From: Paenibacillus sp. BIHB 4019
Lineage (GTDB): Bacteria; Bacillota; Bacilli; Paenibacillales; Paenibacillaceae
Length of the DNA stretch: 64,000 nucleotides
Assembly (NCBI RefSeq): GCF_002741035.1
Contig: NZ_CP016808.1
Span: 6,806,501-6,870,500 of the forward strand
Direction: 5' to 3'
Shown: in pieces, positions 42,043-54,453 of the stretch
Layout: each line of letters opens with the position of its first letter
Numbering within the stretch: the stretch's first letter is position 1
Program-made: the position numbers and the translations under genes
Notes under the pieces: generated by a model
Seen by the model: the letters and a program-made list of their open reading frames with translations, nothing else
The model's database searches: none
What the model was told of the DNA's origin: nothing

Positions 42043-42670
42043 GTTTCATTCCACGCTCTTGCACGGAGAGCGACGCATGCTCGCAGAAGATTTAGAGTTT
42101 AGGTTACGTGTTTCAATCCACGCTCTCGTACGGAGAGCGACTGATAAACACAGGGATTTTTATGATGCGATTATGTTTCAATCCACGCTCTCGCACGGAG
42201 AGCGACGTAGCGCCTTATACGATGAATTTGAGCTTCTTTCTGTTTCAATCCACGCTCTCGCACGGAGAGCGACTGACGCTCGTTCCGCACGCTTCAAACC
42301 GCGTGTAAGTTTCAATCCACGCTCTCGCACGGAGAGCGACCCAGAACGGTCCTGGCGGCGGCCACAATATTGGACGGTTTCAATCCACGCTCTCGCACGG
42401 AGAGCGACGCGGATTTACATAAATAACCTTCCCGTCAACAAGTTTCAATCCACGCTCTCGCACGGAGAGCGACCAAGATGCGGCGTGAATATCAAACCAC
42501 CGCTGGGTTTCAATCCACGCTCTCGCACGGAGAGCGACGCAAGCATAAATGTGACGCGCAAAATGATTGCACGTTTCAATCCACGCTCTCGCACGGAGAG
42601 CGACGGCAAATTGATGGTTTTAAGCTCACAAACAGCAGGTTTCAATCCACGCTCTCGCACGGAGAGCGAC
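42043..42670 (-). CRISPR. Type I-C CRISPR array 1, 10 repeats, 9 spacers
   Basis: The 32-bp repeat begins GTTTCAATCCACGC and ends GGAGAGCGAC on the plus strand. Repeats start at 42043, 42110, 42175, 42242, 42309, 42377, 42442, 42507, 42573 and 42639. Spacers are 33-36 nt. The leftmost repeats carry changes (two in the first, one in the second), as expected at the trailer end. The crRNA strand is the minus strand, where the repeat ends in GTGGATTGAAAC, the usual I-C handle. The array is therefore read right to left from the leader at 42671. Confidence 0.98.
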
Positions 42671-45027: not shown

Positions 45028-45942
45028 CTACCATTCTAGTATTTTGATACCTTCAGGCAAATCATCCCTATTAATCGTAATCTCATATTCTTTGAAAGAA
45101 CGAATCGGCTCTACTGGCAGACTCTGGTCTCTCACACGAATAGCATCAACACGTTCCAACAATTGGTGAGCGGGAGCATTACCAAGCCTTGTCTCATGCT
45201 GGAAAGCAACAAGTTTTCGAACCGTCATTTGTCCCCGTGATGCTGAGCGATCATGCTCAAACATATGAAGCAGAGCTTCCCATAACAATTCCAAATCATT
45301 GTTCGTAAATCCCGTCTTTTCTGCCAAATAACCTGAAATATACCCATCCATACGGTAGAGACCATATGGAACTATGTGTTTACGTCCCATTTCTCTTTCT
45401 TTAGCAGCTCCTTCTTGCGTTACTGCCTGACGAGTAATTGTTAGCTCCTGAGGAAAAATAGGATCAATGCTCCGGGCAAACGTAAACTGAATCGGCCCAC
45501 GCACCTGTCCACAATTCACCTTAGTTGTCATAACTGCACCAAAGGTACGAATATCAAAGAAATTATCACACATCCAACGTGTTAATTGACGTGATTGTTC
45601 CTGACTTTTAGGCTTCAATTCCTTAGTATCAGCATCATCTGGTCGAATCGCTCGATATGCGCGGCGTTGCTGCTCATTAAGCACTGCGCCCTCTGTCACA
45701 TAAATGTTAAAGCCTTCTTCCCCTTCCCTAGTCAGCTCAATATAATTGCGGACTTTTCGTTTAATACATACATCAGTCACAATACCATGACCTGTCTCTG
45801 GATCGGTACGCGGCATATTTCCTGCATCGGGATCACCATTGGGGTTACCATTTGTTACATCAAAAAAAATGGAGAAATCATATCTTTGAGCTAACGCACT
45901 ATTTTGCCCGACTTTTTCCAATTCTGCTTGTTCAATTGCCAT
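45028..45942 (-). CDS. cas7c: Cas7c (Csd2), Cascade backbone subunit
   Basis: This 304-residue protein has the family opening RYDFSIFFDVTNGNPNGDPD and then IVTDVCIKRKVRNYI, DIRTFGAVMTTK and GQVRGPIQFTFARSIDPI. Several copies coat the crRNA spacer. The ATG at 45940-45942 and a TTG six bases upstream are both possible starts after GAGGCGAT. Confidence 0.97.
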   Translation of the reverse strand: MAIEQAELEKVGQNSALAQRYDFSIFFDVTNGNPNGDPDAGNMPRTDPETGHGIVTDVCIKRKVRNYIELTREGEEGFNIYVTEGAVLNEQQRRAYRAIRPDDADTKELKPKSQEQSRQLTRWMCDNFFDIRTFGAVMTTKVNCGQVRGPIQFTFARSIDPIFPQELTITRQAVTQEGAAKEREMGRKHIVPYGLYRMDGYISGYLAEKTGFTNNDLELLWEALLHMFEHDRSASRGQMTVRKLVAFQHETRLGNAPAHQLLERVDAIRVRDQSLPVEPIRSFKEYEITINRDDLPEGIKILEW

Positions 45943-45999
45943 TTTCAATCATCGCCTCTCAAATCGTATTTTCAAAACATAGAGATGGATTATTATCAA

Positions 46000-50931
<4,932 letters not shown>

Positions 50932-50983
50932 GAGAATCACCTCGACATTTTTCACTGAGACCTATATACCATTGCTTTCCATA

Positions 50984-51012
50984 AGTGTACGAGTTAACCT
51001 ATTGGTTGTAAA
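50984..51012 (-). promoter_or_regulatory. cas operon promoter
   Basis: On the minus strand TTTACA (51007-51012) and TACACT (50984-50989) are 17 bp apart. The start lies about 45 bases before the cas3 ATG. The -35 box overlaps that of the divergent mini-CRISPR unit. Confidence 0.6.
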
Positions 51013-51036
51013 GACATTTTTTACCTGAATTACTAT
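51006..51036 (+). promoter_or_regulatory. Predicted promoter of the mini-CRISPR unit
   Basis: TTGTAA (51006-51011) and TACTAT (51031-51036) are 19 bp apart. The predicted start (about 51043) falls at the first base of the degenerate repeat at 51044. Spacing is slightly long. Confidence 0.5.
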
Positions 51037-51043
51037 TTTAAAA

Positions 51044-51121
51044 GTCGTCCTGAATCTAGTTGAGGATGTGGATTGAAACCCTATTTTAAAGATTCCGTTT
51101 GACGCTCCCCGTAAGGGGAGC
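51044..51121 (+). ncRNA. Degenerate mini-CRISPR unit, CreA-like guide RNA candidate
   Basis: A first degenerate repeat (51044-51079) keeps the 5' GTCG, a TCCTGAA/TTGAGGA stem, and the full 12-base handle end GTGGATTGAAAC. A spacer-like segment of 21 nt (51080-51100) starts CCTATTTTAAAGATTC. A second degenerate repeat (51101-51121) keeps GACGCTCCCCGT with a perfect GCTCCCC/GGGGAGC stem, matching 10 of the first 12 bases of the I-C repeat, and lacks the 3' half. The orientation is opposite to both arrays. The known parallel is CreA/CreR RNAs, crRNA-like guides with decayed repeats that steer Cascade to a promoter without cutting. The guide matches a site at 51547-51562. The RNA probably ends at 51197-51243. 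Confidence 0.6.
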
Positions 51122-51196
51122 CTAATCTCACTTATATTCATCACGCTAACTTTCTACTGTCCAACGTAACCCTAAAACTTCAATTTTTGTTTAAAA

Positions 51197-51243
51197 TAAA
51201 GGCCGTAATCCACAGAGCACTTATCTGGCGGATTACGGCCTTT
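51197..51243. terminator. Strong bidirectional terminator between guide and peptide units
   Basis: AAAGGCCGTAATCC and GGATTACGGCCTTT arms with T runs on both sides can end the guide RNA from the left and the peptide transcript from the right. Confidence 0.9.
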
Positions 51244-51338
51244 TTAGCTAAAAACATCTGGTTTTAGAATGGGCATTATTAAACCTATAGTTAGATGTTA
51301 TTGAATGTGACTGCATTTTTACATCGTTTAAAACAAAA

Positions 51339-51446
51339 CTATCTGATTGCCCAAAATCCAAAGCTGAATAATCGGGAGTTCTTGTACCTCAGCCGTGAAA
51401 TTCTATCGTCGATCTTACTGTCGTTAAAATTTGTAAACGTTTTCAT
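51339..51446 (-). CDS. 35-residue cationic peptide, candidate CreT-like toxin
   Basis: ATG at 51444-51446 is preceded by AGGAGGTG (51455-51462) at a normal distance, one of the best ribosome sites in the window. The peptide starts MKTFTNFNDSKIDDRIS and ends RLFSFGFWAIR. It has five Arg and three Lys against three Asp, and an aromatic, cationic C-terminus. All five Arg codons are of the AGA, AGG, CGG or CGA type. It has no signal peptide. It is convergent with the mini-CRISPR guide, which has a matching site at an upstream promoter. I know no family for it. A toxin role is inferred only from this arrangement; an ordinary small protein or a regulatory leader peptide is possible. Confidence 0.55.
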   Translation of the reverse strand: MKTFTNFNDSKIDDRISRLRYKNSRLFSFGFWAIR

Positions 51447-51479
51447 ATAATCACCACCTCCTAAAAATCAAGACTTAAC

Positions 51480-51485
51480 ATTATA
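51480..51485 (-). promoter_or_regulatory. Second possible -10 box for the peptide gene
   Basis: TATAAT lies on the minus strand 34 bases before the peptide ATG. The matching -35 region (GCATAT) is poor, so the promoter at 51555-51582 may be the main one. Confidence 0.35.
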
Positions 51486-51546
51486 TGAAAAAGTCTGAGG
51501 AGATATGCATGTGGGAAGAATAAAAACAAACTCAGGTCGCATAAAA

Positions 51547-51582
51547 GAATTTTTAATATAGAGAAGCACGAAAAAACATCAA
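51547..51582 (-). promoter_or_regulatory. Predicted peptide promoter and guide-RNA target site
   Basis: On the minus strand TTGATG (51577-51582) and TATATT (51555-51560) are 16 bp apart. A TTC PAM (51563-51565) is followed by TCTATATTAAAAATTC (51562-51547). Against the guide CCTATTTTAAAGATTC this matches 13 of 16 positions; the mismatches are at 1, 6 and 12, and positions 6 and 12 are flipped out in type I R-loops. Cascade bound here would cover the -10 box. Confidence 0.55.
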
Positions 51583-51691
51583 GCCACTATATCAATGGAA
51601 TAGTTCATTAGGAGATGTCTTACGTTTTCAAAAAACATTTGCACTGAGAGCAACATATCACCGCCACTACCACCTACATCATCCCCCATGT

Positions 51692-54453
51692 GATTGAATC
51701 CACGCTCTCGCACGGAGAGCGACGATAGCGGCAGCGATAGTGAAAATTGAAGCGACAGTTTCAATCCACGCTCTCGCACGGAGAGCGACGCTAGCCCCCG
51801 TCAGGATGTAAATATAGATCGGCGTGTTTCAATCCACGCTCTCGCACGGAGAGCGACTAGCAGTAAATACAGCGAAATGGGTACATGCTCGTTTCAATTC
51901 ACGCTCTCGCACGGAGAGCGACCAGCGACGGCAGCGGAAGCGGCGGCCAAGTTGGAGTTTCAATTCACGCTCTCGCACGGAGAGCGACGTTTCCGCAGCG
52001 TGCGCAGCGCAGCACGCCAGAGTTTCAATCCACGCTCTCGCACGGAGAGCGACAATGATGACGGCCTGCTTGCCTATACTCGTTTTATGTTTCAATCCAC
52101 GCTCTCGCACGGAGAGCGACCGTATCGCTAAACATAGAAATATGGTCTAGCATGTTTCAATCCACGCTCTCGCACGGAGAGCGACATTTGGTGGGCTCGC
52201 CTAGACGGCGGCACTGGCAGCGTTTCAATCCACGCTCTCGCACGGAGAGCGACCAAACGGCCCACGCCAGTTAAGATACAGCGGCATGTTTCAATCCACG
52301 CTCTCGCACGGAGAGCGACATGCAATGGCGGAAATGGCGGCAGCTGGTGAGGTGGTTTCAATCCACGCTCTCGCACGGAGAGCGACTCCAGTATTTAACG
52401 ATTCCCAAAACAAGAGGCAGGTTTCAATCCACGCTCTCGCACGGAGAGCGACGTGGGAATGATTGTTACAACATTTTTAGGATTTTATGTTTCAATCCAC
52501 GCTCTCGCACGGAGAGCGACTCTACTGGCGTACAGTCGCGCAGAACCAAACCGGTTTCAATCCACGCTCTCGCACGGAGAGCGACTATACCAGGTAGATA
52601 TGTAGAGATAAACGGCAATGTTTCAATCCACGCTCTCGCACGGAGAGCGACCTCTAGCCGCCGTGATATCTTCCAGCATCTTCGCGTTTCAATCCACGCT
52701 CTCGCACGGAGAGCGACAATTGACACAACTGGCTTACCGTTTATTTGCTCTGGTTTCAATCCACGCTCTCGCACGGAGAGCGACCCCACGCCTTTGTCCT
52801 GCGTATCGGAGCCGGTACCGGTTTCAATCCACGCTCTCGCACGGAGAGCGACTCTCCGAAATCCCATCAGCTTGGTAGCCAGCATGGTTTCAATCCACGC
52901 TCTCGCACGGAGAGCGACGCGAGAGCTCGACGGAACGTTGAAGTACATTGACGAGTTTCAATCCACGCTCTCGCACGGAGAGCGACAAGAGCCTGTGGAA
53001 GAGGCTCTCGTAAACGACCTGTTTCAATCCACGCTCTCGCACGGAGAGCGACCCATCCTCAATAAGCTTCTCTGCTATATCTGCCGGTTTCAATCCACGC
53101 TCTCGCACGGAGAGCGACGCGTATATTTGACGGGGTTTTCAGATAGCTTCGTTGTTTCAATCCACGCTCTCGCACGGAGAGCGACCTTCACGTCGTCCGG
53201 GTCTTCTACTCCCGTCGCGGTGTTTCAATCCACGCTCTCGCACGGAGAGCGACCAGGCGAAGACGGAGCAAGCCCGAAATGCTGCATGTTTCAATCCACG
53301 CTCTCGCACGGAGAGCGACTCGTCCACTTCTGCGCCCAAGTCATGCGCCGTATGTTTCAATCCACGCTCTCGCACGGAGAGCGACATGGTCGTGTTTGGC
53401 GTTTTTGTTCTGATAATTATGTTTCAATCCACGCTCTCGCACGGAGAGCGACAAAGCCCCCTTAAGCCGCCGCCTTTTTGAGCCCACGTTTCAATCCACG
53501 CTCTCGCACGGAGAGCGACAAGCATAAGTTGTCAACGCAAACAAGGATTGCGCGTTTCAATCCACGCTCTCGCACGGAGAGCGACGCATAAAACGAGACA
53601 AGGGGTTGTGTTAATGTCGGTTTCAATCCACGCTCTCGCACGGAGAGCGACGAATTCTTTAGCGATTTTGGCAGACATTTCATGAGTTTCAATCCACGCT
53701 CTCGCACGGAGAGCGACCTAACATGCCTATGATAGATATATAACATCATAGGGGTTTCAATCCACGCTCTCGCACGGAGAGCGACTTTACTTTTCTTTTT
53801 CGCACCCTCTACCATGTTACGTTTCAATCCACGCTCTCGCACGGAGAGCGACCTTCATGAGCAAACGTCAAAGTGACGAATTCACTGTTTCAATCCACGC
53901 TCTCGCACGGAGAGCGACAAGCCCCCTTAAGCCGCCGCCTTTTTGAGCCCACGTTTCAATCCACGCTCTCGCACGGAGAGCGACGAGCAGCTTGTCCCAA
54001 TATTTACGACGCAGCTTAGGTTTCAATCCACGCTCTCGCACGGAGAGCGACCGTAACAGTGTTGTGCTGAAGAATGTGTTTAAATTTGTTTCAATCCACG
54101 CTCTCGCACGGAGAGCGACTCTCAGCCTCAGCCTCAGCAGAATGTTTATAATCAGTTTCAATCCACGCTCTCGCACGGAGAGCGACGGTTTCTCTTGCTA
54201 GTATTAGCCGTATTTTTCCTCGTTTCAATCCACGCTCTCGCACGGAGAGCGACCTATACGTTTCAACGCCAACAACCGCGATAGCACAGTTTCAATCCAC
54301 GCTCTCGCACGGAGAGCGACACTTTTGCCCGATCCTATTACCCCTATATACTGTTGTTTCAATCCACGCTCTCGCACGGAGAGCGACCTATCATAGACAA
54401 TTTAACCCATGGTAGTCAATAGTTTCAATCCACGCTCTCGCACGGAGAGCGAC
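51692..54453 (-). CRISPR. Type I-C CRISPR array 2, 42 repeats, 41 spacers
   Basis: The repeat is the same as in array 1. Starts run from 51692 to 54422 with a period of 65-68 bp, and spacers are 33-36 nt. The leftmost repeat (51692) has two changes in its first five bases, and the repeats at 51891 and 51957 share CAATTC for CAATCC, marking the old end on the left. One spacer occurs twice (53453-53487 and 53919-53952). The array is read right to left from its leader at 54454. Confidence 0.98.

Follow-up and report, generated by a model that had tools for sequence, protein, structure and literature searches.

A subtype I-C CRISPR-Cas locus of Paenibacillus sp. BIHB 4019 carries, outside its two arrays, a short unit built like a degenerate repeat with a spacer, which raises the question of what this unit silences, if anything. 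We analysed it within a stretch of 64,000 nucleotides (the window) of the 7.25 Mb chromosome. The locus is flanked by arrays 1 and 2, which share a 32-nt repeat (GTCGCTCTCCGTGCGAGAGCGTGGATTGAAAC). The genes cas4, cas1c and cas2 lie on the - strand together with the cas genes of Table 1 and are likewise free of internal stops. CreTA modules (type VIII toxin-antitoxin systems) go with type I Cascade genes at the locus, and here cas5c, cas8c and cas7 are present as frames without internal stops. The one Rfam hit, a CRISPR repeat match within array 2, stayed below threshold. The same genome holds a second I-C locus (G000:C1:722248-727320; L014, L155 and L156), in which the cas8c matches are split into two pieces; no handle hit was found in the 5385 bases around its cas3 (L014). 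A Cas3 scan of the genome contigs gave a single locus, L016, without a guide hit.

Table 1. Features of the I-C locus (window coordinates) and of the guide-bearing Hol_Tox loci of three relatives
Feature	Position	Strand	Remarks
array 1	42043..42670	-	same repeat and strand as array 2
cas7	45028..45948	-	TIGR02589; no internal stops
cas8c	46000..47904	-	TIGR01863; no internal stops
cas5c	47901..48617	-	TIGR01876; no internal stops
cas3	48592..50931	-	no internal stops
predicted cas3 operon promoter	50984..51012	-	TTTACA-17-TACACT; no good guide match beside a TTC PAM
weak candidate guide-unit promoter	51011..51039	+	AAGACA-17-TATTTT, picked out by eye; missing from the promoter scan
psiR1	51044..51079	+	degenerate 36-nt I-C repeat; 3' handle GTGGATTGAAAC intact
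guide, spacer-like	51080..51100	+	21 nt
psiR2	51101..51121	+	5' two thirds of repeat, strong hairpin, no handle
hairpin, likely terminator	about 51198-51243		between convergent units; T-rich DNA on both sides
candidate toxin, 35-residue cationic peptide	51339..51446	-	reading frame; net charge +5
ribosome-binding site	51457..51462	-	AGGAGG, upstream of peptide frame
protospacer	51542..51562	-	equals guide at 2-5, 7-11, 13-16, 19, 20
TTC PAM of target	51563..51565	-	adjoins protospacer
predicted small-unit promoter	51555..51582	-	TTGATG-16-TATATT; -10 inside protospacer
array 2	51692..54453	-	repeat handle end reads on -, opposite to guide unit
guide unit, TTC target(s), Hol_Tox	L030:3815-4200		coordinates with cas3 on +
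guide unit, TTC target(s), Hol_Tox	L032:3810-4180		coordinates with cas3 on +
guide unit, TTC target(s), Hol_Tox	L149:3780-4080		coordinates with cas3 on +

The unit (psiR1, guide and psiR2; 51044-51121 on the + strand) lies between cas3 and array 2, diverging from cas3 and opposed to both arrays. It carries the repeat-like sequence and exact 12-nt processing handle that a CreTA guide unit has outside the arrays: the + strand of the window has a single copy of GTGGATTGAAAC, the 12-nt end of the array repeat, at 51068, and the 48 copies on the - strand are all within the arrays. psiR1 keeps 12/12 of these last repeat positions, and its first 20 positions, compared without gaps, match 8/20 of the first 20 of the repeat; psiR2 keeps 10/12 of the first repeat positions and forms a 7-bp hairpin. 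The two-part degenerate repeat with an intact I-C handle, the 21-nt guide and the orientation given in a preliminary description of the locus thus all hold. A psiR2 made of the 5' part of the repeat is common, though not universal, in CreTA. The window unit shares the pattern of two-repeat creA genes, in which, according to excerpts of PMC8501985, the 5' handle is retained by psiR1 and the 3' handle by psiR2. Folded alone, psiR1 forms a hairpin like that of the true repeat (-8.4 versus -10.9 kcal/mol); in the predicted best structure of the whole 79-nt unit, psiR1 pairs with the guide, its hairpin is lost and only the psiR2 hairpin stays. The processed guide RNA is predicted to start with the handle TGGATTGAAAC at about 51069. 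Upstream of the unit, CTATTTTAAA at 51033-51042 repeats guide positions 2-11 beside a triplet other than TTC; this copy, which the first of the shuffle tests below stopped short of, may reflect chance or self-regulation.

The guide matches 13 of the first 16 positions of a site adjoining a TTC PAM, with differences at 1, 6, 12, 17, 18 and 21. Three of these six (6, 12 and 18) fall at positions that take no part in pairing, position 18 being unpaired by the same 6-nt period as 6 and 12, so that 1, 17 and 21 remain. For CreA guides, excerpts of PMC8501985 describe 6 and 12 as uninvolved in pairing. The match is rare by several measures. At TTC sites, 13/15 non-flipped positions were reached by 0/3000 dinucleotide shuffles of 51123-51690 and by 0/3000 shuffled guides, and in a second test over 62 TTC sites 0/5000 shuffled guides reached the match; with any PAM allowed, 6/1000 shuffles reach 13/15. 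Across the 7.25-Mb genome, the target pattern TTCNCTATNTTAAANATT has exactly one mismatch-free occurrence, and one mismatch adds a single site (two for the reversed control pattern at the same tolerance). The match itself, and the placing of two of its three mismatches within positions 1-16 at 6 and 12, are as first described, the third being position 1.

The site overlies a predicted promoter at its -10 box. Taken alone this promoter call is weak, since 50900-51760 holds five promoter-like sites where 2.5 would be expected. Downstream, the - strand is predicted to carry, in order, this promoter, AGGAGG, the 35-residue frame and the hairpin, as in the preliminary description, which had a convergent gene for a cationic peptide with a good ribosome site. 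Its strong terminator fares less evenly: a hairpin in T-rich DNA is present, but the terminator scan did not list it. Up to E 1, the peptide matches nothing in Pfam, and so has neither a match to Hol_Tox (PF16935) nor the KilA-N domain of CrePA. No convincing relative of it was found in 393 other genomes of the family sample (best E 0.08), and a DNA search of 59 relatives found no copy of the module. We only infer that the peptide is toxic.

In its anatomy the window resembles CreTA of I-B haloarchaea and I-F Acinetobacter: two divergent psiR elements, a short guide, a PAM-linked partial match over the predicted promoter of an adjacent small gene, a strong ribosome site and neighbouring cas genes. 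It differs in its subtype (I-C), in the convergent orientation of the target unit, in the unpaired position 1 and in having a candidate toxin only. Bacterial CreTA modules were reportedly predicted in the 2021 Science paper on CreTA. The codons after the start of the peptide frame include no consecutive AGA pair, unlike CreT of H. hispanica (PMC8501985, in excerpt). Seed rules give a mixed answer. In a haloarchaeal I-B CreA each of positions 1-5 and 7-11 was essential and a position-1 mismatch was not tolerated (same excerpts); the window guide satisfies 9/10, failing at position 1. For Acinetobacter I-F CreA, excerpts of PMC10097628 give a cost below 2 logs for a position-1 mismatch and list 2-5, 7-9 and 13-17 as essential, all of which the window guide keeps except 17. 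The position-1 mismatch is the main weakness of a CreTA-like reading, and the mismatch at 17 also speaks against it. CrePA, a KilA-N protein toxin repressed by CreA (PMC12737573, in excerpt), is alike in that a crRNA-like guide silences a protein toxin, but the window peptide has no KilA-N match and the candidate toxin of relatives L030, L032 and L149 is Hol_Tox.

We looked for such guides in other I-C loci. Cas3 searches covered 51 genomes of the genus, 392 of the order and 398 of the class in overlapping samples, with smaller searches around two relatives; 94 of the 137 places listed by the order search were examined, as were 32 of the 52 from the class search. With 60 further stretches added, 104 I-C-like loci were scanned for isolated handles with at most one mismatch, excluding before counting those with N in the guide or a guide shorter than 21 nt. 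A guide and target were paired if a TTC site within 800 nt matched at least 9/10 seed positions (1-5 and 7-11). The scan gave 53 isolated repeat handles, 35 of them, the window included, with such a site and 29 with 10/10; these counts are not independent events because the loci are related by descent. The other 18 have no 9/10 match, and some resemble true array units or chance handles. Among the 35 pairs, matches number 34, 34, 35, 35 and 35 at positions 1-5, 4 at position 6, 35, 34, 34, 35 and 33 at positions 7-11, 8 at position 12, 33, 32, 28 and 25 at positions 13-16, and 9-16 at positions 17-21. Positions 6 and 12 are thus free to differ and pairing ends near 16. Since pairs were picked by 1-5 and 7-11, with the total over 1-16 as a tie-break only, what is seen at 6, 12 and 13-21 depends little on the selection. 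Position 1 is mismatched in the window guide alone.

Perfect seeds of the 53 isolates lie beside TTC in 29 cases, versus 4 for the remaining 63 triplets combined, and only 2/227 array spacers reach 9/10 in the same regions. Guides compared with the regions of other loci reach 9/10 in 74/1190 and 10/10 in 12/1190 cross pairs, a background above that of array spacers because many guides are alike. In 27 more loci of the class (46 handle hits), further cases come from other families (L135, L140 and L142), with a weaker one, L133, in which 13-16 are mostly unmatched; L122, a two-mismatch handle without repeat-like context, was excluded. A looser handle scan (2835 candidates) added only L029; L068, L069, L090 and L099 were excluded by eye because they look like palindromes or array self-matches. 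In L029 (860-1150, cas3 on +) the guide is array-born: it is the final spacer of a normal array and matches, with a 10/10 seed beside TTC, the beginning of a short unit that has a likely terminator. A family-like guide unit at L070:4692 has no matching TTC site nearby and is possibly a decayed case.

Where do these guides point? In 22 of 37 pairs (the 35 together with L029 and L032), at most 105 nt separate the target from the next called long frame, mostly cas3 or cas5 as assigned by frame starts, not every frame having been identified. In 14, the window included, the distance is 208-711 nt, and one target meets a contig end. In the I-C relatives examined, such guides most often target DNA directly ahead of cas genes, which the preliminary description had not foreseen. 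The 22-pair group reads as CreR, that is, as autorepression of cas genes. One-repeat guide units with targets directly ahead of cas5 or cas3 occur in L006, L008, L054, L058, L071, L078 and others, and these are likely I-C CreR. Much of the 208-711 nt group has small frames between target and cas. Frames in that place in relatives include HTH_Tnp_1 in L095, DUF6398 in L041 and a 34-aa frame in L089, with transposase-like frames, judged by eye only, in L083 and L029; those of L095, L083, L029 and L041 are possibly other Cascade-controlled genes. The window stands apart: its offset of -494 is the sole negative value and the other 36 are positive, its target lying on the far side of the guide unit from cas (L044 and L060 also carry the label 'far side' in the offset output; in these two the called frame begins before the target).

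Within the Cas3 clade of the window, three loci couple a guide to a known family of putative small toxins. In L030, L032 and L149 the TTC target lies between cas3 and cas5, directly upstream of a Hol_Tox gene (29.8, 36.9 and 37.0 bits; Pfam cut-off 23.3), and we regard these loci as likely I-C CreTA modules; the window peptide is outside this family. They were retained even though two seeds fall below 9/10, L032 having 8/10 with one wobble and L149, outside the 37 pairs, 8/10 with two wobbles (P 0.015). L030 and L032 share a guide type and have fitting targets. In L149 the guide differs from theirs and the target differs along with it, so that guide and target covary, with a weaker match in L149. 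The covariation proposed earlier is seen between these relatives; of the window module itself no copy for comparison was found in the 59 relatives. With clade labels assigned by us, the window and the three loci fall into one nine-member Cas3 clade (support 0.983); a guide was not detected in the other five members, some of whose stretches are cut by contig ends or N. A profile built from the three Hol_Tox frames found, in 134 loci, one other clear frame (L098, 4.4 kb from its guide) and a doubtful one (L053, E 0.2). A blastn search with the L030 module found none in plasmids.

That the window guide silences a small accessory gene other than a toxin seems unlikely to us. Non-toxin-like small frames such as those of L095, L041 and L089 speak for it, as does a peptide unlike any known toxin; however, the target unit is self-standing, having a predicted promoter and terminator to itself as well as a strong ribosome site, and Hol_Tox genes occupy that place in three loci of its Cas3 clade. 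We also think it improbable that the guide unit is a CreR-type cas regulator whose effect on the peptide unit is incidental, as apparently applies to most guide-bearing I-C relatives. CreR has been reported for I-B, I-E and V-A (PMC13131331, a review, in excerpt), mini-CRISPR guides of this kind match DNA directly ahead of the next long frame, mostly cas3 or cas5, in 22 of the 37 pairs, and the window unit shares its divergence from cas3 with most of these loci. However, the window guide has no useful TTC-flanked match in its own cas promoter: the best TTC site in 50932-51043, upstream of cas3, matches at 7/15, and the best site beside any triplet, 9/15, is equalled by 87% and 75% of two kinds of shuffle. 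Moreover, its actual target is 607 nt upstream of the called cas3 frame, beyond the likely terminator, at the only negative offset. A non-working relic mini-array with a historical or fortuitous match would fit the position-1 mismatch, the weak guide-unit promoter and the upstream copy of guide positions 2-11, but is very improbable given that positions 2-5, 7-11 and 13-16 all still pair and that the site pattern occurs nowhere else in the genome.

The window is best read as a CreTA-like addiction module, because its lone far-side target fronts a self-contained small unit and because Hol_Tox modules occur in the same Cas3 clade. We consider it probable that, directed by the crRNA-like two-repeat unit, I-C Cascade silences what is likely the promoter of a small and probably toxic gene, a system that works like CreTA, with no claim of proven membership. 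The guide unit would be transcribed and cut at the psiR1 handle by Cas5c, the RNA-processing enzyme of subtype I-C, which has no Cas6. Guide-loaded Cascade would then sit over the -10 box and keep the candidate toxin off, and its binding would spare the chromosome because the match is short. Were Cascade lost, the 35-residue peptide or its RNA would be made and the cell harmed, and the cas genes would therefore be addictive, as in CreTA. From the I-C CreTA proposal of the preliminary description, the pairing of guide and target and the CreA-like anatomy emerge strongly supported, with CreTA-like I-C layouts in the Hol_Tox relatives; the toxic peptide and the harm following loss of Cascade we infer.

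A full-text search of open-access literature, which included PMC8501985, PMC9458426, PMC10097628, PMC12948488, PMC13131331, PMC8730458 and PMC12737573, some of them in excerpt, found no I-C CreTA or CreR, and an earlier mention elsewhere is possible. If our reading is true, I-C would be a further subtype for CreTA (characterised in I-B and I-F) and for CreR (I-B, I-E and V-A), as far as those sources extend, and Hol_Tox would connect classic small toxins with CRISPR guarding. The guide and target grammar provides a simple computer test for many more genomes. More broadly, we lean slightly towards I-C Cascade being a general RNA-guided repressor in this lineage, where decayed one- or two-repeat guides would silence cas promoters in many loci and, in a sub-clade, would have become addiction modules that guard Cascade by means of small peptide toxins (Hol_Tox in three relatives; in the window, a new peptide of 35 residues). 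This suggests a way in which a CRISPR locus may resist loss or inhibition.
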